From Thiotrichaceae bacterium (GTDB lineage: Bacteria; Pseudomonadota; Gammaproteobacteria; Thiotrichales; Thiotrichaceae), in assembly GCA_027008885.1 (NCBI GenBank), contig JALVDQ010000138.1, positions 1 to 12,880 of the forward strand: 12,880 nt of DNA. The letters run 5' to 3'. Shown in pieces: positions 1,391-11,945 of the stretch. A program made the position numbers and the translations under genes. Each line of letters starts with the position of its first letter. Position 1 is the stretch's first letter. The notes below the pieces were generated by a model, which worked only from the letters and a program-made list of their open reading frames with translations, was not told the DNA's origin and did not search any database.

Positions 1391-2632
1391 ATGGCAAGCA
1401 AACACGAAATTATTGGCGAAGAGTGGAAGCAGCGCGCGCCTGAGCTGGCTGAGTGGGCAATGCAGCACCTGGTCAATCGCAAGGATGTCTGGGGACAGTA
1501 TTCGGTGTTAACACCGAGTGAGCGAATCCGCGAGGGTCGCAGTTATAAGGCGATGACACTGCCGCGCAAAGATATGCGCGGTGATGATATGGTGACTTTG
1601 GACAAGCTTGCCCGGCATTTTGCCAGTCGCCATCATCACAAGCCGCAGATTATCGGGCTTCATGCCAAATCCAAACAGACTACCAGCAAATGGCTGGGAA
1701 TTGATATTGACTGCCACGACACAGATGCGGTAGCAGCAGAAGATCATGCACGCCGTAATCTTAATGGTGCGCTTAAGTGGTGGCGTGATTTTCAGAAAAT
1801 GGGCTATGACCCGCTGCTGATTGATTCAAACGGTGCTGGCGGCTATCACCTTTGGGTGCTGTTCAGGGAAGCCGCACCGACCCAGGATGTGTACGCCCTG
1901 GCAAAAAGTGTGGTGACGCAATGGGAAAGCAATAATCTTGATGAAGAACCGGAGACTTTTCCCAAAAAGGTGAAGCAAGACAGCCTCGGTGCCTGGTTTC
2001 GCTTGCCCGGCTTGCACCATAGCCGCGAGCATTACAGCAAAATCTGGAGTGGCGATGAATGGCTGGATGACCCCTGGCTTGATGGACACGCGGCAATTGA
2101 TGCCATCCTCAGTGTGGTTCCCGGTCCGCCACCACCAAAGAGTACGGATGTTGATCTGAAACCACGCAAAACCCGTCTGACAACACTAAAAAAATCCAGC
2201 AGCAAGAAAGCAAGCGCCCGCAAAAATCGTTTTAAAAGCACCGGCAAAGCGACGATTTGCGTTGATCTCGATGGTGTGCTCGCAGATCGCACTTACACCA
2301 AAGGCAAGACCGATATTGGTGAGCCAATTGATGGCGCGGTTGATTTTACGCATGAACTGGCAAAATTTTCCGAGATTCTGATTCTCACCTCACGTTTTTC
2401 CGGGCTTAAAACCTCGCAGGAGAAAGAAAAAATGGAAAAAGCCATTCGCAAGTGGCTCGATCGGCATAAATTTAGCTATACTCAAATCTGGACAAAATCT
2501 GCCAAGCCCCCTGCACAGGCGTATATTGATGATCACGGCGTCTATTGTTGCCCCGCAAAGGAAGGCATTGGCGCATTTGCCACGGCATTGGCATCGACAA
2601 AATATTTATTAAAAATTAAGGCAGAATCCTGA
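1391..2632 (+). CDS. AEP/PrimPol-type primase domain fused to a HAD phosphatase domain
   Basis: A 413-aa two-domain protein. The N-terminal domain (about 65-245) carries archaeo-eukaryotic primase hallmarks: a metal-binding DxD in WLGIDIDCHD (D105, D107), the nucleotide-binding motif SNGAGGYHLW (146-155, H153), and an arginine/histidine segment LGAWFRLPGLHH (199-210). These resemble the primase domain of TOTE-type conflict systems and stand-alone relatives known to me from Planctomycetes. A basic, lysine-rich linker (about 255-285) follows and could bind DNA. The C-terminal domain (287-395) has HAD motifs: VDLDGV (D292, D294), ILTSR (T333/S334), a lysine in KSAKPPAQ (K369 or K372) and YIDD (D380, D381). 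This layout is typical of small phosphatases, including the polynucleotide 3'-phosphatase type. No helicase or ligase domain is present. A small downstream gene starts 37 nt later. Synthesis or filling-in of DNA/RNA ends combined with phosphate removal is an inference. The domain calls are firmer than the role. Start at ATG 1391 has no strong Shine-Dalgarno. Confidence 0.85.
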   Translation: MASKHEIIGEEWKQRAPELAEWAMQHLVNRKDVWGQYSVLTPSERIREGRSYKAMTLPRKDMRGDDMVTLDKLARHFASRHHHKPQIIGLHAKSKQTTSKWLGIDIDCHDTDAVAAEDHARRNLNGALKWWRDFQKMGYDPLLIDSNGAGGYHLWVLFREAAPTQDVYALAKSVVTQWESNNLDEEPETFPKKVKQDSLGAWFRLPGLHHSREHYSKIWSGDEWLDDPWLDGHAAIDAILSVVPGPPPPKSTDVDLKPRKTRLTTLKKSSSKKASARKNRFKSTGKATICVDLDGVLADRTYTKGKTDIGEPIDGAVDFTHELAKFSEILILTSRFSGLKTSQEKEKMEKAIRKWLDRHKFSYTQIWTKSAKPPAQAYIDDHGVYCCPAKEGIGAFATALASTKYLLKIKAES

Positions 2633-2669
2633 TACGGGAAGCCACCATGAACAATTAGCAGACTGAATA

Positions 2670-3305
2670 ATGGCAAGATCACTTACCTTTACATTTGGCA
2701 AAACCAGTTTTGACTGCACACTTCACAAGGTTGACCGCAGCAAGCTGTATGGTTCACGCTCTATTGAAACGCTGGATATGGACGGCAATAAATGCACTCT
2801 GGCAACCTTGCTGGATGATGGCAAAACACTGCTGCCTTATGGTGGTACGGCTTCTGGCTATATCAACCCCGATGGCGAATGGGTCTGCCGCAAGGATATT
2901 AAAGCGGTTGATTTTAATGGTAAACCACTAAAAAAAGTGCCTTCCAGTTTTGATACGGGTATATCGCTGCATGAAAAAGTTACTGTAGAGGAATTTCTTA
3001 ATCACAGTATTCGTCTGAGCTATGCACTGACAAGCAAGGATGAAGAAAACGGTATGCACAAGGCTTTTATCAAGTCCATGAAAAAAGGTGATATTTATAA
3101 AACCAGCTTTAGCTATCGTGGCAGCATCGACCCTGACCCCGCGTTTGTGATGCAGGGCGAGGATGAAACGATCTGGTTGCTTATCGCCTCACGCAATGAA
3201 ATTGAATTTTCGGCACTGGAACAGGCGGGCGTGATCGCTGCCACCGAGGAGCAGGACGAAGGTGCAGAAAGCAGTGCTGATGAACTTGATTTTGGCATGT
3301 TGTAA
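2670..3305 (+). CDS. Uncharacterised conserved-looking 211-aa protein paired with the primase-HAD gene
   Basis: I recognise the sequence style (MARSLTFTFG ... DRSKLYGSRSIETLDMDG ... SGYINPDGEWVCRKDIKAVD ... VPSSFD ... EEFLNHSIRLSYALT) as a family of hypothetical proteins, but not a named function. It is soluble and beta-rich, with no signal peptide or membrane segment, and ends in a very acidic tail (about 190-211, EEQDEGAESSADELDFGML). One possibility is a distant Ku-like beta-barrel. The order (GY-x-x-x-DGEWV, a helix in HKAFIKSMKKGD, then two strands ending WLLIASRNEIEF) loosely parallels the bacterial Ku order (GYEY-x-x-G-x-YV, LLREAL helix, paired strands). That match is by eye and weak. 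The start at 2670 is forced closely because TGA is two codons upstream. The Shine-Dalgarno is weak. The 37-nt gap, the same strand and similar base composition argue for an operon with the primase-HAD gene. Confidence 0.75.
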   Translation: MARSLTFTFGKTSFDCTLHKVDRSKLYGSRSIETLDMDGNKCTLATLLDDGKTLLPYGGTASGYINPDGEWVCRKDIKAVDFNGKPLKKVPSSFDTGISLHEKVTVEEFLNHSIRLSYALTSKDEENGMHKAFIKSMKKGDIYKTSFSYRGSIDPDPAFVMQGEDETIWLLIASRNEIEFSALEQAGVIAATEEQDEGAESSADELDFGML

Positions 3306-3954: not shown

Positions 3955-4896
3955 TTATTTAAATGGAATCTTGCTTACTTTAATTGGCTCATTCGTAAAA
4001 ATACCAGGAGCCTGGTAGTATTGAAAGAAAGTATCCGCATATTCAACAAAAGAATTATCGGTGTGTTTTTTTATCGGCTTAAATACTGCTTCACTTAAAT
4101 TTAAACCAACGCCAAAAAGAACTTCTCTTCTTTTTTCTTTGTAATATTGCTTTTCACCTTTGGCATAACCCTCTGTATGGTAGCCGAGTTGTAGTTCCAG
4201 ATATTTCAGGGGAGTGCTTTTAAACTGATTAAAGCCTGCCAGCTTTACTACGAATAAATTGGTATGCCCCGAATAGTCAATGACTGGTCGGTCACTATTA
4301 TGTTCCGTTGGCTTATAGCTCATTCGCAAATCAAACTTTTTGTCCAGTTGAGGGACTGTATTTCTGAGATAGGACAAGCCAACGCCAAGGCTGTTAAACG
4401 CAACATCCTGATATGAAAATCCATAACGTGAAAAGCCGTCAGCTACTTCCAGCCAAAACATGATGCTTGAAGAAAAGAGTGCCGCTTTTTTGGCTGCCGC
4501 AGATTTATTATTGGTCTTTTTCATTAACTGTTTGGTAAATATTTCATTAATAAGATATGAACTATACATGTGCCCAAACTTGTCAGCCCCACCCTCTTTT
4601 GCGCTATCACCAAGCCAGCCTTCATGAGCAATATTAAATGAACTTTTTGAGCCCCAATTCCAGTCCGAAAAGCCTTCTCGCAATGCCTCTGCTGCGACCA
4701 GACCGACCTCCCATTTAATTTTTTCCAGGGCATCTAATGTTGTTAACTTATCAACTGTTTGTTTGTCATGATCCGGTTTTTTGGATGCTTTTTTGTGGTT
4801 AGGAGAGGTTTCAATACCCTGTTGATAGAAAAGAGTATTTGCCTGGCAAGTAATAGAGAGCATCAATGCTGAAAAAAGCAGTATTAAAGATTTCAT
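3955..4896 (-). CDS. DUF2279/YfiM-like predicted envelope protein
   Basis: A 313-aa exported protein. Residues 1-19 are a Sec signal peptide (MKSLILLFSALMLSITCQA); the cysteine there is not in a good lipobox, so lipidation is doubtful. The core matches the DUF2279/YfiM pattern: GGADKFGHMYSSYLINEIF (102-120, with D105, K106 and H109), then WLEVADGFSRYGFSYQD and VAFNSLG (148-171). The C-terminal 140 residues are rich in alternating hydrophobic residues (LKYLELQLGYHTEGYAKG, EVLFGVGLNLSEAVF), suggesting beta-strands. The biochemical role of this family is unknown. It is transcribed alone, convergent with the 106-aa gene. A mosaic repeat separates it from glgP upstream, so it is probably not part of the glycogen operon. 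Confidence 0.75.
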   Translation of the reverse strand: MKSLILLFSALMLSITCQANTLFYQQGIETSPNHKKASKKPDHDKQTVDKLTTLDALEKIKWEVGLVAAEALREGFSDWNWGSKSSFNIAHEGWLGDSAKEGGADKFGHMYSSYLINEIFTKQLMKKTNNKSAAAKKAALFSSSIMFWLEVADGFSRYGFSYQDVAFNSLGVGLSYLRNTVPQLDKKFDLRMSYKPTEHNSDRPVIDYSGHTNLFVVKLAGFNQFKSTPLKYLELQLGYHTEGYAKGEKQYYKEKRREVLFGVGLNLSEAVFKPIKKHTDNSFVEYADTFFQYYQAPGIFTNEPIKVSKIPFK

Positions 4897-4988
4897 AGAA
4901 AACCTGCCATAAACAAATTAATTAGGTGGACGATATTAATCAATCATAATGATCAATGCAATGGAAAACAGGGGAGGATTACTATATA

Positions 4989-5018
4989 ACCCATCCCCCC
5001 TGTTTTTTATATATTTTT
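4989..5018. repeat. C-run/T-run intergenic module, copy 2
   Basis: ACCCATC6 followed by TGT6 and ATATATTTTT (30 bp). It forms one border of the composite repeat between the DUF2279 gene and glgP; the other border is copy 3. Confidence 0.85.
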
Positions 5019-5029
5019 CAGAAAGCAAC

Positions 5030-5111
5030 CGTAGCCAGGGTTAGCGATAGCGTAATCCAGCACAGTGCCACAATCCTGTCGGGTTACGCTTGGGCTAACC
5101 CGAGTTGCGAA
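5030..5111. repeat. Imperfect palindromic intergenic repeat, copy 1
   Basis: The segment contains TAGCGATAGCGTAATCC, a central CACAGTGCCACAATC block, and GGGTTACGCTTGGGCTAACC. It aligns with the copies at 9351-9427 and 11782-11857 and can fold into a long interrupted hairpin. Its arms have diverged more than those of the 9351 copy. Confidence 0.8.
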
Positions 5112-5112
5112 G

Positions 5113-5133
5113 CTGTCTTCTGTCCTCTGTCCT
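5113..5133. repeat. Heptamer tandem repeat, 3 units
   Basis: CTGTCTT, CTGTCCT, CTGTCCT in tandem, directly after the palindromic repeat and before the C-run module. The same position holds 3 units at 9432 and 7 units at 11862. Confidence 0.8.
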
Positions 5134-5140
5134 CTGAAAC

Positions 5141-5169
5141 ACCCATCCCCCCCTTTTTTTATATATTTT
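5141..5169. repeat. C-run/T-run intergenic module, copy 3, overlapping the glgP stop codon
   Basis: ACCCATC7 followed by T7 and ATATATTTT. The glgP TAA stop (5159-5161) is inside this module, so the repeat encodes the last residues of GlgP. Confidence 0.85.
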
Positions 5170-7705
5170 CAGGTGTCAGTGGCGTGAGCTTCCAGATATC
5201 CCGATTGTATTCCTGCATGGTGCGGTCGGTAGAGAAAAAGCCACTACAGGCGGTATTCATTATACTCATGCGTATCCATTTCTGCTGATCCTGCCAGGTT
5301 TCTGCGACGCGCGCCTGGGTATCAACATAGCTACGAAAATCGGCTAGTGTCATCCAGGGATCAGATGGTTTTAAGAGGCTGTTAATCAGTTCGTCAAAAA
5401 TGCCTGGTTCAAGTGCGTTAAAATGCCCGGACTGCAACAGGTACATGACATTTTGCAGGTCTTCATCCTGGTCAATATAATCCTGTGGCTGATAATTTGG
5501 CAGCAGTTCTTCCACTTCATGCGCCTTTAAGCCAAACAGGAAGAAGTTTTCCTCGCCTACCTGTTCCAGTATTTCAATATTGGCTCCATCATAGGTACCG
5601 ATGGTGAGTGCGCCATTCATCATAAATTTCATATTGCCGGTGCCGGATGCTTCCTTGCCCGCTGTGGAGATTTGCTCCGACAGGTCTGCGGCGGGTGCGA
5701 TGATTTCCATCCCGGAAACGCCATAGTTGGGGAAGAAGGCAATTTTCAGGCGGTCACCGATTTCCAGATCATTATTAATGACATCGGCGATATTGTTGAT
5801 CAGCTTGATAATGCTTTTTGCCAGCACATAGCCAGGTGCTGCCTTGCCACCAACCAGAATACAGCGGTTGACCCAGTTTTCGGTTTTGCCCTGCTTGATG
5901 AGGTTATACAGATGCACCATGTGCAGCGCATTGAGTAGCTGGCGTTTGTATTCATGGATACGCTTGACCTGAATATCAAAGAGTGATTGCGGGTTAAAGC
6001 TGATGCCGCAGGTTTGGTTGACGAGGTTTGCAAGACGTTGTTTATTGGCTTGCTTGACTGCCTTGAAGTCCTTATGAAATTCGCTGTGAGCGGCTTCGGC
6101 AAAGGGTTTGAGCTGCTCAATTTTACTTAGATCAGAAATCCACTGCTCGCCAATTTTGGAACTGATCAGCTTGCTCAGTTCGGGATTGGCATAGGCGATC
6201 CAGCGTCTTGGTGTTACGCCATTGGTTTTATTGTTGAATTTCTCTGGCCACAGCTCGCAAAAGTCCCTGAACAAGCCGTCACAGAGCAGTTTTGAGTGCA
6301 ACTCGGCAACCCCGTTTACCGAAAAACTGGCAACAATTGCAAGATGTGCCATGCGTACCTGTTTATGCTCGCCTTCTTCAATAATCGACAGGCGGCTTTG
6401 ACGCGCATAGTCACCAGGCCATTTGGCGCGTACCACTTCCATAAAGTGCGCGTTGATTTCGTAGATAATATCCAGCAGGCGCGGCAGCAGTTTTTCAAAA
6501 AGGCTCACTGACCATTTTTCAAGTGCTTCAGGAAGGAGTGTATGATTGGTGTATGCCATTGTTTTACAGGTAATTTCCCAGGCATCATTCCAGCCCAGAC
6601 CTTTTTCATCCATGAGCAGGCGCATCAGTTCGGCAACTGAAATGGTGGGGTGGGTATCATTCATCTGGAATACATTCAGATCAGCAAAGCGTTTGTAATT
6701 TTCAATACCTGTGCCTTCGCGCAATTCCCAGCGTCGTAAAATATCCTGCAAGCTGGCTGAGGCAAGAAAATATTGCTGGCGCAGGCGCAATTCCTTGCCG
6801 TTTTCGCTGGCATCATTGGGGTAGAGCACCATGGTAATGTGTTCTGCCGAATTTTTTGCAGCAACCGATTCGGTGTAGTCACCAGCATTAAATTCTTCCA
6901 GATTGAACTCGTCGGTGGCGGTTGATTTCCACAGGCGCAGTGTGTTTACGGTATGATTTCTAAAGCCTGAAATGGGGACGTCATAAGGCACTGCCATAAC
7001 ATCGTTGGTTTCGACCCAATGTGCTTTGAGATTGCCTTCTATGTCGGTGTAAAATTCGGTTCTGCCGCCAAAATGGATGCGCTGGGTGTATTCAGGACGG
7101 CGCATTTCCCAGGGGTTGCGATCGCGCAGCCAGTGATCCGGCTCTTCATCCTGGTAGCCATTGATGATGAGTTGCCGGAACATGCCGTATTCATAGCGCA
7201 AACCATAGCCGACCACCGGCAGGTTGAGGGTCGCGCAACTGTCCATAAAACAGGCGGCGAGACGCCCCAGACCACCATTGCCAAGCCCCGCATCCGGCTC
7301 AATGTCTTCAATGTTTTCAAGCTCGACACAATAGTTGTGCATGGCTTCGCGCATATTCTCCCTGAGGTCAAGATTCAGCAGATGATTACCCAGGGCGCGC
7401 CCCATCAGAAACTCCAGCGACAGGTAATAAGCCTGTTTTACGCCTTTCTGTTCCTGCTGCTGGCGGGTGCGATGCCAGTCCACAATGACGCGATCACGCA
7501 GTGTTTTGGAGACGGCTTCATAAAGATAAAAACAGGAGCAACCGTGATGCCGCCCCAGATGATAGATCAGATAGCGTTCAAAACTTTTGCTGAGTGCCTG
7601 CGGATCACCCGGCAGGGCAGGGATTTCATCTGGCAGGCAGGTTTCCATGGTAAGCGCCTCGGGCGTGTGGAGCATGGAACCTGTTTCTCTGGGGGTACAC
7701 TTCAT
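5159..7705 (-). CDS. glgP: Glycogen/maltodextrin phosphorylase
   Basis: An 848-aa GT35 phosphorylase, close to the usual 800-850 aa. It removes terminal glucose from alpha-1,4 chains with phosphate, giving glucose-1-phosphate in the cytoplasm. Clear family blocks are YYLSLEFLMGRALGNHL, DAGLGNGGLGRLAACFMDS, NDTHPTISVAELMR, NNKTNGVTPRRW, VKRIHEYKRQLLNALH and EASGTGNMKF, where K693 is the expected pyridoxal-phosphate lysine. The N-terminal 20 residues (MKCTPRETGSMLHTPEALTM) are not well conserved, but the ATG at 7703-7705 overlaps the glgA stop as ATGA and has an AGGA 8 nt upstream, so this start is favoured. The C-terminal residues ENI are encoded by an intergenic repeat module. It is the last gene of the glycogen cluster and is probably translationally coupled to glgA. 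Confidence 0.97.
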   Translation of the reverse strand: MKCTPRETGSMLHTPEALTMETCLPDEIPALPGDPQALSKSFERYLIYHLGRHHGCSCFYLYEAVSKTLRDRVIVDWHRTRQQQEQKGVKQAYYLSLEFLMGRALGNHLLNLDLRENMREAMHNYCVELENIEDIEPDAGLGNGGLGRLAACFMDSCATLNLPVVGYGLRYEYGMFRQLIINGYQDEEPDHWLRDRNPWEMRRPEYTQRIHFGGRTEFYTDIEGNLKAHWVETNDVMAVPYDVPISGFRNHTVNTLRLWKSTATDEFNLEEFNAGDYTESVAAKNSAEHITMVLYPNDASENGKELRLRQQYFLASASLQDILRRWELREGTGIENYKRFADLNVFQMNDTHPTISVAELMRLLMDEKGLGWNDAWEITCKTMAYTNHTLLPEALEKWSVSLFEKLLPRLLDIIYEINAHFMEVVRAKWPGDYARQSRLSIIEEGEHKQVRMAHLAIVASFSVNGVAELHSKLLCDGLFRDFCELWPEKFNNKTNGVTPRRWIAYANPELSKLISSKIGEQWISDLSKIEQLKPFAEAAHSEFHKDFKAVKQANKQRLANLVNQTCGISFNPQSLFDIQVKRIHEYKRQLLNALHMVHLYNLIKQGKTENWVNRCILVGGKAAPGYVLAKSIIKLINNIADVINNDLEIGDRLKIAFFPNYGVSGMEIIAPAADLSEQISTAGKEASGTGNMKFMMNGALTIGTYDGANIEILEQVGEENFFLFGLKAHEVEELLPNYQPQDYIDQDEDLQNVMYLLQSGHFNALEPGIFDELINSLLKPSDPWMTLADFRSYVDTQARVAETWQDQQKWIRMSIMNTACSGFFSTDRTMQEYNRDIWKLTPLTPENI

Positions 7706-9350: not shown

Positions 9351-9427
9351 GTAGGTTGGATTAGCGCAGCGTAATCCAACATAGTGCCACGATTTTGTCG
9401 GATTACGCTAAGGCTAATCCGACCTAC
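9351..9427. repeat. Imperfect palindromic intergenic repeat, copy 2 (best preserved)
   Basis: The outer arms GTAGGTTGGATTAGC (9351-9365) and GCTAATCCGACCTAC (9413-9427) pair at 14 of 15 positions. Inner GCGTAATCC and GGATTACGC also pair. This makes a long stem with a central ATAGTGCCACGATT block. Repeats of this type are common in gammaproteobacterial intergenic regions. It lies between glgB (upstream) and glgA and could affect the mRNA joining them. Confidence 0.85.
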
Positions 9428-9431
9428 AAAG

Positions 9432-9452
9432 CTGTCTTCTGTCTTCTGTCCT
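9432..9452. repeat. Heptamer tandem repeat, 3 units
   Basis: CTGTCTT, CTGTCTT, CTGTCCT in tandem, placed between the palindrome and the C-run module as in the other two composite copies. Confidence 0.8.
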
Positions 9453-9459
9453 CTGATAC

Positions 9460-9488
9460 ACCCATCCCCCCCTTTTTTTACTATTTTT
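9460..9488. repeat. C-run/T-run intergenic module, copy 4
   Basis: ACCCATC7 followed by T7 and ACTATTTTT. It ends 4 nt from the glgB stop codon (9493-9495). This composite has only one module copy; the matching copy on the glgA side is absent. Confidence 0.85.
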
Positions 9489-11742: not shown

Positions 11743-11749
11743 ATTAATT

Positions 11750-11779
11750 ACCCATCCCCCCTGTTTTTTACATATTTTT
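11750..11779. repeat. C-run/T-run intergenic module, copy 5, just upstream of glgB
   Basis: ACCCATC6 followed by TGT6 and ACATATTTTT (30 bp). On the minus strand, its G6ATGGG part ends 8 nt before the first glgB ATG. That places a purine-rich, Shine-Dalgarno-like tract at a workable distance. Whether it serves as the ribosome site is inference. Confidence 0.85.
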
Positions 11780-11910: not shown

Positions 11911-11915
11911 CTGAT

Positions 11916-11945
11916 ACCCATCCCCCCTGTTTTTTATATATTTTT
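11916..11945. repeat. C-run/T-run intergenic module, copy 6
   Basis: Matches copy 2 exactly over 30 bp (ACCCATC6, TGT6, ATATATTTTT). Together with copy 5 it brackets the palindrome and heptamer array in the malQ-glgB gap. Confidence 0.88.

Follow-up and report, generated by a model that had tools for sequence, protein, structure and literature searches.

The window considered here is a 12,880-nucleotide stretch of contig JALVDQ010000138.1 (assembly GCA_027008885.1) from a Thiotrichaceae bacterium. It carries, on the plus strand, a gene in which an AEP (primase-polymerase) domain is fused to a HAD phosphatase domain, followed closely by a gene for a small acidic protein. These two genes correspond to the head of a five-gene operon found in relatives, where the same pair, termed here AEP-HAD and c1, comes first. 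The three further genes encode a second conserved protein (c2), a predicted ATP-dependent ligase (LIG) and an ExoIII-like member of the endonuclease/exonuclease/phosphatase family (EEP).

The fusion gene and its acidic partner

AEP-HAD, the operon's first gene, occupies positions 1391-2632 and encodes 413 amino acids; c1 (2670-3305, 211 amino acids) begins 37 nucleotides after it on the same strand, as an initial annotation of the window had read the pair. All features of the two genes described below lie on the plus strand. The AEP domain is placed at approximately residues 1-250 (1391-2140), with the Pfam match covering residues 70-213 and the remainder delimited by conservation. That match is to PF22548 (AEP-TOTE), at 29.2 bits against a curated cut-off of 27, and the N-terminal domain thus fits an AEP profile, as had been proposed. 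Conservation was judged in an alignment of 41 sequences picked from the AEP-HAD homologues together with two of the loci, the others being 52-89% identical to the window protein. The predicted DxD motif is intact (D105 and D107, 1703-1711), invariant, and aligned with the DID of the structures 7nqd/7nqf. The second motif (S146-H153, 1826-1849) departs from the SxGxGxH form given in the initial annotation, since it reads SNGAGGYH (SxGxGGxH) and is one residue longer; G150, G151 and H153 are invariant and the serine varies. With a profile match above cut-off and both DxD and GGxH present, the domain is assigned by its sequence to the AEP superfamily. Searched against the PDB, the family profile found chains 7nqd and 7nqf, which we take to be CRISPR-associated Prim-Pols, at E 2e-5. 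The model NF040561 ('CRISPR-associated primase-polymerase') was reached by 38 of the 41 members (best E 7e-6), the window protein scoring 14.2 bits against a cut-off of 200, and the LigD-type polymerase model TIGR02778 was reached by two of the 41 with a best E of 0.12, too weak to count as a match.

The linker between the two domains (approximately residues 250-285, 2138-2245) is basic here, in keeping with its first description, and varies in length among relatives in the alignment. The HAD phosphatase domain that follows (approximately residues 286-400, 2246-2590) had been called intact, and it is: D292 and D294 of motif I (D292-L-D294, 2264-2272) and K372, D380 and D381 of the region from motif III to motif IV (2504-2533) are invariant in the 41 sequences, and T333 is nearly so. 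These residues supply the DxD, T/S, K and DD motifs by which the domain is placed in the HAD superfamily. Assignment within the superfamily is more graded. TIGR01662 matched the window domain at E 8e-4 (19.5 bits, cut-off 44.6), and the window protein lies under the cut-off of every listed NCBIfam HAD model. The family profile matched PDB 1xpj over the domain at E 2.5e-7, and the window domain matched phrog_1238 at E 5e-12 and phrog_415 ('polynucleotide kinase') at E 3e-6, the latter family being reached by 34 of the 41 members. Similarity to phrog_415 makes the domain a possible polynucleotide 3'-phosphatase.

Of 3895 candidate homologues of AEP-HAD, 474 match at E<=1e-3, and each of the 120 matches listed (at least 120 of the 474) covers 93-100% of the fusion, which is therefore not a chance joining of two domains. 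In four comparisons for AEP-HAD and three for c1, the proportion of non-synonymous differences (pN) was 0.10-0.20 and that of synonymous differences (pS) was 0.71-0.89, the latter near saturation, and both genes look to be under purifying selection.

The c1 protein had been described as conserved-looking, an impression strengthened by a homology search in which 165 of 358 candidates passed E<=1e-3. Scans of c1 with Pfam and NCBIfam models gave no family match, single family members reaching unrelated Pfam models at chance level; against the PDB, the c1 profile found a phage head-closure protein over 41 residues at E 0.0017. The family is acidic, with isoelectric points (pI) of 4.05-4.85 and a median of 4.19 in 25 proteins, the window protein being the highest at 4.85. 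Its most conspicuous feature is the C-terminal tip, DELDFGML in the window (3279-3302), which is preceded by an acidic stretch and is conserved in homologues, the end reading F-x-[ML]-L in 116 of the 119 listed. SSB-type C-termini and clamp-binding peptides resemble such a tip, a likeness that we infer, and the tip is possibly a partner-binding peptide. A paralogous relationship between c1 and c2 was considered and rejected, hhalign giving a probability of 1.0%, or 2.5% with larger alignments.

The downstream genes and the operon in relatives

Gene order was compared across 28 AEP-HAD loci, comprising 20 from a genome collection (all titled metagenome-assembled), seven from one order and the window. 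Open reading frames were called mechanically, each from its first start codon, and assigned to the five families by profiles; the lengths of some gaps and overlaps are therefore approximate. The neighbourhood survey that the initial annotation had suggested bears out the pairing of the first two genes, with c1 no more than 100 nucleotides downstream of AEP-HAD on the same strand in 23 of the 28 loci. At two others (L002 and L018) c1 lies 1.1 and 2.9 kb downstream, and at L006 the contig stops about 100 nucleotides past AEP-HAD. On the same strand, c2 follows c1 in 22 loci. LIG is found downstream on the contig and strand of AEP-HAD in 19 loci, the window not being among them, and EEP is likewise linked in 15, so that the whole order AEP-HAD, c1, c2, LIG, EEP is present on one strand in 15 of the 28 loci, one of them with 6.9 kb between c2 and LIG. 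The contig stops within the expected extent of the operon at six of the 13 loci without the full order (L002, L006, L008, L010, L011 and L019). Small extra genes, read by eye as encoding an ACT-like protein and a membrane protein, stand between c2 and LIG at four loci.

The families also occur together at the level of genomes. Of 21 genomes, this one included, 20 gave a match to c1, and of the 20 relatives 19 gave one to c2, that in G192 being a fragment at a contig end; LIG was found in 18 of the 21, as fragments in G185, G186, G194 and G203. The genome without matches to c1, c2 or LIG is G190, in which the contig stops directly behind the AEP-HAD gene. For L003 and L017, c1, c2 and LIG lie on other contigs of the genome, and for L018 c2 and LIG lie on another contig; sets unlinked from AEP-HAD stay together. 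Within the order to which G198 belongs, the 18 genomes, out of 48, that have AEP-HAD are also the 18 that have c2. The pairwise protein distances of AEP-HAD, c1, c2 and LIG correlate at r 0.87-0.97, uncorrected for shared species history. Carriers are, by their record titles, Gammaproteobacteria, Hellea/Caulobacterales, Verrucomicrobia and Rickettsiales, and the gene set is patchily distributed.

Like c1, c2 is a family without a Pfam entry, although 2518 proteins, out of 2793 candidates, match it at E<=1e-3. Its core is conserved over about 233 residues; Pfam scans of the core found no match, and the nearest PDB match of the c2 profile was S100-A5 at E 0.21. A basic tail extends past the core in 67 of the 120 homologues listed and at 11 of 25 loci (at L081 probably through an over-long start). 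The c2 protein of a Granulosicoccaceae locus (L012, 11991-13547) carries a SAM domain (PF00536, E 2e-13), and precomputed annotation places such a domain in 10 of the 120 homologues listed.

LIG, of about 490 amino acids, matches PF01068 and PF04679 and thereby has the nucleotidyltransferase and OB domains of an ATP-dependent ligase, as in the LigD/Ku system. The 'NHEJ ligase' model TIGR02779 is matched at E 5e-14 and 8e-17, falling far short of its curated cut-off, and the PDB matches are DNA ligases (best E 4e-11), presumably archaeal and human. The catalytic KxDG, EGV and KxK are invariant in 11 sequences. The protein ends in a conserved domain of about 120 residues (L014, 14380-14757; L023, 201-590), for which a search of that domain alone against Pfam gave nothing credible and a WGR-like reading was dropped for want of support. 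EEP matches ExoIII structures in the PDB at E 6e-15, and N10, E38, D145, N147, D230 and H231 are invariant in nine sequences.

In a verrucomicrobial set LIG bears a Lys/Ala-rich, histone-like tail and c2 is short, and in some gammaproteobacterial sets a Lys-rich tail is borne by c2 (L045, 3107-4972, and L043, 9810-10685). It looks as if the tail had moved between the two partners, and its position on LIG instead of c2 in the verrucomicrobial genome suggests that c2 and LIG may act together on DNA.

The genome to which the window belongs (2.97 Mb in 494 contigs, completeness listed as 100%) has its gene set split, with a complete LIG, 62% identical to the L014 ligase, on another contig (C114). 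A proposal in the initial annotation that the unit works without a ligase is thus contradicted both here and at the 19 loci where LIG lies downstream. Relatives of the two window proteins (P0006 and P0125, 88% and 81% identical) and a c2 78% identical to that of L001 (P0278) hint that AEP-HAD, c1 and c2 are linked in a sister genome.

Within the window, AEP-HAD and c1 sit between two small genes at the left end and a minus-strand glycogen operon (glgP, glgA, glgB and malQ, translations read by eye) that fills the right two thirds. Between the unit and this operon, at 3955-4896, is a gene for a predicted periplasmic lipoprotein (DUF2279; PF10043, E 2.7e-27). The adjacent upstream genes, at 3-596 and 608-1030, gave no family above cut-off in a Pfam scan; one is weakly carboxypeptidase-regulatory/PEGA-like and one is small and probably secreted, the signal being read by eye. 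Just upstream of AEP-HAD, at 1038-1312, lies a palindromic stretch resembling a miniature inverted-repeat transposable element, with inverted arms at 1038-1062/1288-1312 (25 nucleotides, 92%) and 1069-1116/1203-1250 (48 nucleotides, 75%) and about four tandem copies of a 16-nucleotide unit at 1140-1203. There is also a dispersed repeat, CCCATCCCCCC with a run of T after it, in six copies that are 70-94% identical to the reference copy (1342-1374, 4986-5018, 5138-5170, 9456-9488, 11747-11779 and 11913-11945). It recurs upstream of AEP-HAD as well as around the glycogen genes, and longer copies of 113 nucleotides are found at 5049-5161 and 9368-9480.

Proposed function of the gene set and rival explanations

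We consider it somewhat probable that AEP-HAD, c1, c2, LIG and EEP form a five-component, Ku-independent DNA repair system for end cleaning, gap filling and sealing. The order of events proposed for it is drawn from domain content, and every catalytic step from motifs. EEP would first incise a damaged site or trim blocked 3' ends, after which the HAD domain would take off 3'-phosphates and so make a primer end available. The AEP domain could then fill a short gap, and LIG would seal the remaining nick with ATP. In this scheme c1 and c2 would be non-catalytic organisers: c2, which in some lineages has a basic tail or a SAM domain, may hold DNA or partners, and c1, acidic and with a conserved C-terminal tip, may dock partners, possibly the sliding clamp. 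A polymerase-phosphatase fusion, a ligase and an ExoIII-like nuclease together cover the steps of single-strand break and base-excision repair that follow a glycosylase, and repair of gaps or nicks is therefore favoured over double-strand end joining. The most likely substrate, by analogy with the mycobacterial LigC/Prim-PolC complex, would be a single-strand gap or damaged nick. Gap or excision repair accounts for the full gene set no less well than the joining of double-strand ends does.

The notion of a repair module was already present in the initial annotation, and the neighbourhood and co-occurrence data speak for it. Of the three outcomes named there as refuting it (genes not adjacent in other genomes, no AEP profile match, homologues tied to plasmid or phage replication), none was observed. 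Two of its elements did not survive, namely the absence of a ligase and a Ku role for the 211-residue protein, for which hhalign returned probabilities of 0.6% and, with smaller alignments, 0.3%. The proposed survey of ligase and Ku genes found LIG in 18 of the 21 genomes and Ku in none, neither in the 20 relatives nor in this genome.

Several observations weigh against the five-component repair system. By sequence matches, the nearest counterparts of the AEP domain are the TOTE and CRISPR-associated Prim-Pols rather than the LigD polymerase. Among the HAD matches, those to phrog_1238, a family annotated as 'phosphoheptose isomerase' and reached by 41 of the 41 members, are the stronger, and the capsule phosphatase model TIGR01689 is reached by 31; a small-molecule substrate for the HAD domain is therefore possible. 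c2 is not generally basic, its pI in 25 proteins ranging from 4.7 to 10.3 with a median of 7.0. The association itself has limits, as the EEP count covers the 28 loci without a genome-wide search, the correlation of protein distances is uncorrected for shared species history, and in an even draw of the class AEP-HAD was present in one of 185 genomes, this one. In addition, c2 was not found in this genome by a single query with the L001 protein, run with no positive control and no profile search. With completeness listed as 100% and LIG unlinked, the set may be incomplete here.

A bolder version of the repair system is offered tentatively, as a possibility that we rate below the general scheme. 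It envisages a self-contained, Ku-free machine for mending breaks, in which c1 with its acidic docking tip and c2 with its histone-like tail in many lineages would form a scaffold that holds DNA ends or gaps for the polymerase-phosphatase fusion, the divergent ATP ligase and the ExoIII-like nuclease. If the set does repair breaks, polymerase, 3'-end phosphatase and ligase would have been brought together in it independently, in parallel with LigD/Ku, and it could explain how ends or gaps are mended in some bacteria that lack Ku.

The rival that survives best is Ku-independent joining of double-strand breaks, in which c1, c2 or both would bind and bridge the ends, HAD, EEP and AEP would trim and fill, and LIG would join; we regard it as unlikely, with a minor yet real chance of being right. 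An ATP ligase resembling the LigD ligase model does travel with an AEP polymerase and 3'-end processing, and both c1 and c2 could hold ends. Some c2 proteins, or LIG, carry a basic tail reminiscent of those of bacterial Ku. A Ku search that was positive in a B. subtilis control and in 17 of the 185 genomes of the class found none in this genome or in any of the 20 relatives. On the other side, 168 of those 185 genomes likewise gave no Ku, and AEP-HAD is in just one of them. A Ku-like fold for c1 or c2, prompted by a resemblance seen by eye in a GYxxxxGxWV region, is not claimed, as comparison of profiles showed no similarity of either family to Ku. The probability for c2 against Ku was 1.0%, or 2.3% with smaller alignments, and the values for c1 are those given above. 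The Ku profile was built from 20 Ku open reading frames (18 distinct), and a Ku-Ku control, the halves of which share two identical sequences, gave 100%. The Pfam families listed for 52 c1 and 45 c2 members do not include Ku, and the AP-endonuclease-like EEP points to single-strand lesions.

A role in conflict with phages or mobile elements, as a system of the TOTE or CRISPR-Prim-Pol type, appears improbable. The family of the AEP domain (PF22548), its resemblance to CRISPR-associated Prim-Pols and the patchy distribution would suit such a role. Against it, the operon proteins scanned with Pfam, a scan that did not extend to the other neighbours, matched neither a TPR nor a TBP model, and membership of TOTE was rejected on this ground. 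The matches of the AEP region in PADLOC-DB were weak (best E 7e-4) and to UG10 reverse transcriptase models. Searches of 72,556 plasmid records with AEP-HAD, c1, c2 and LIG (EEP not being searched) and of 50,697 phage records with AEP-HAD and c2 (c1, LIG and EEP not being searched) gave no match. The enzymes that can be recognised build or mend DNA, and no toxin-like family was matched.

A module for RNA repair or RNA-3'-end processing, its phosphatase and ligase acting on RNA, is very improbable. Phage end-healing phosphatases do act on RNA, and PF09414 (RNA_ligase) matched one of the two LIG homologues scanned (E 2e-5, 25.1 of the 27 bits needed); DNA ligase models nevertheless score higher on LIG, and the set includes an AEP polymerase and an ExoIII-like nuclease. 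Least credible of all is that the set is what remains of a replication module from a plasmid, phage or integrated element, an origin that the initial annotation had offered as an alternative and that would agree with the membership of many bacterial AEPs in mobile elements (PMC5862659), since the plasmid and phage searches above and a search of viral contigs with AEP-HAD gave no match, no helicase or initiator family was found in the operon proteins scanned, and carriers mostly have the set outside any element; a mobile-element origin was accordingly rejected.

To our knowledge, most bacterial AEP polymerases outside LigD, Prim-PolC and the CRISPR systems have no assigned cellular role. In the present set, fusion, operon order and co-occurrence connect the AEP domain with a phosphatase, a ligase and a nuclease, so that its role can be put to a direct test. 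A full-text search of the open-access literature, with most subscription journals outside its scope, found no description of the AEP-HAD fusion or of the five-gene operon in the titles and abstract openings listed.

Comparison with known systems

By its domain content the gene set is classed as an AEP-ligase repair system distinct from LigD/Ku, LigC/Prim-PolC and TOTE. We know of no HAD, ligase or c1/c2 partners of the CRISPR-associated Prim-Pols, which presumably include the nearest AEP domain with a solved structure, 7nqd/7nqf. These Prim-Pols (PMC8211822) resemble the present set in that domain. TOTE conflict systems are named after TPR, OB, TBP and Effector (PMC12458937); they have in common with it the AEP family PF22548, as named by Pfam, and differ in that the operon proteins scanned here have repair enzymes in place of a TPR or TBP match. 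The polynucleotide kinase-phosphatases of phages and eukaryotes are alike in having a HAD domain related to phrog_415, whereas the present protein matches no kinase family and has its HAD domain fused to a polymerase. Non-homologous end joining by LigD/Ku likewise unites a polymerase, a phosphatase and an ATP ligase in one system. The present set differs from it in several respects: no Ku was found with it, a HAD domain replaces the LigD phosphoesterase domain, the AEP is of another family, the ligase gene is separate and an ExoIII-like nuclease is added.

The mycobacterial LigC complex offers the fullest parallel in activities. According to PMC5663958, Prim-PolC, one of ExoIII, XthA or EndoIV, and LigC1 together carry out 3'-end cleaning, gap filling and sealing in vitro, the nucleases being separate partners and a glycosylase gene being present in some operons. 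In both systems the genes for an AEP polymerase and an ATP-dependent ligase share a neighbourhood, which for the present set holds at the 19 loci with a linked LIG and not in the window, and both would combine ExoIII-type 3'-end cleaning with gap filling and sealing. Where the mycobacterial system is marked by physical interaction with glycosylases and AP endonucleases, the present set has an ExoIII-like gene linked at 15 of the 28 loci. They differ in that the AEP described here belongs, by the models run, which did not include one specific to Prim-PolC, to an AEP-TOTE/CAPP-like (CRISPR-associated Prim-Pol) family. In contrast to the mycobacterial complex, the present set also fuses a HAD phosphatase to the polymerase, has a ligase with a conserved C-terminal domain outside the Pfam families, and adds c1 and c2.

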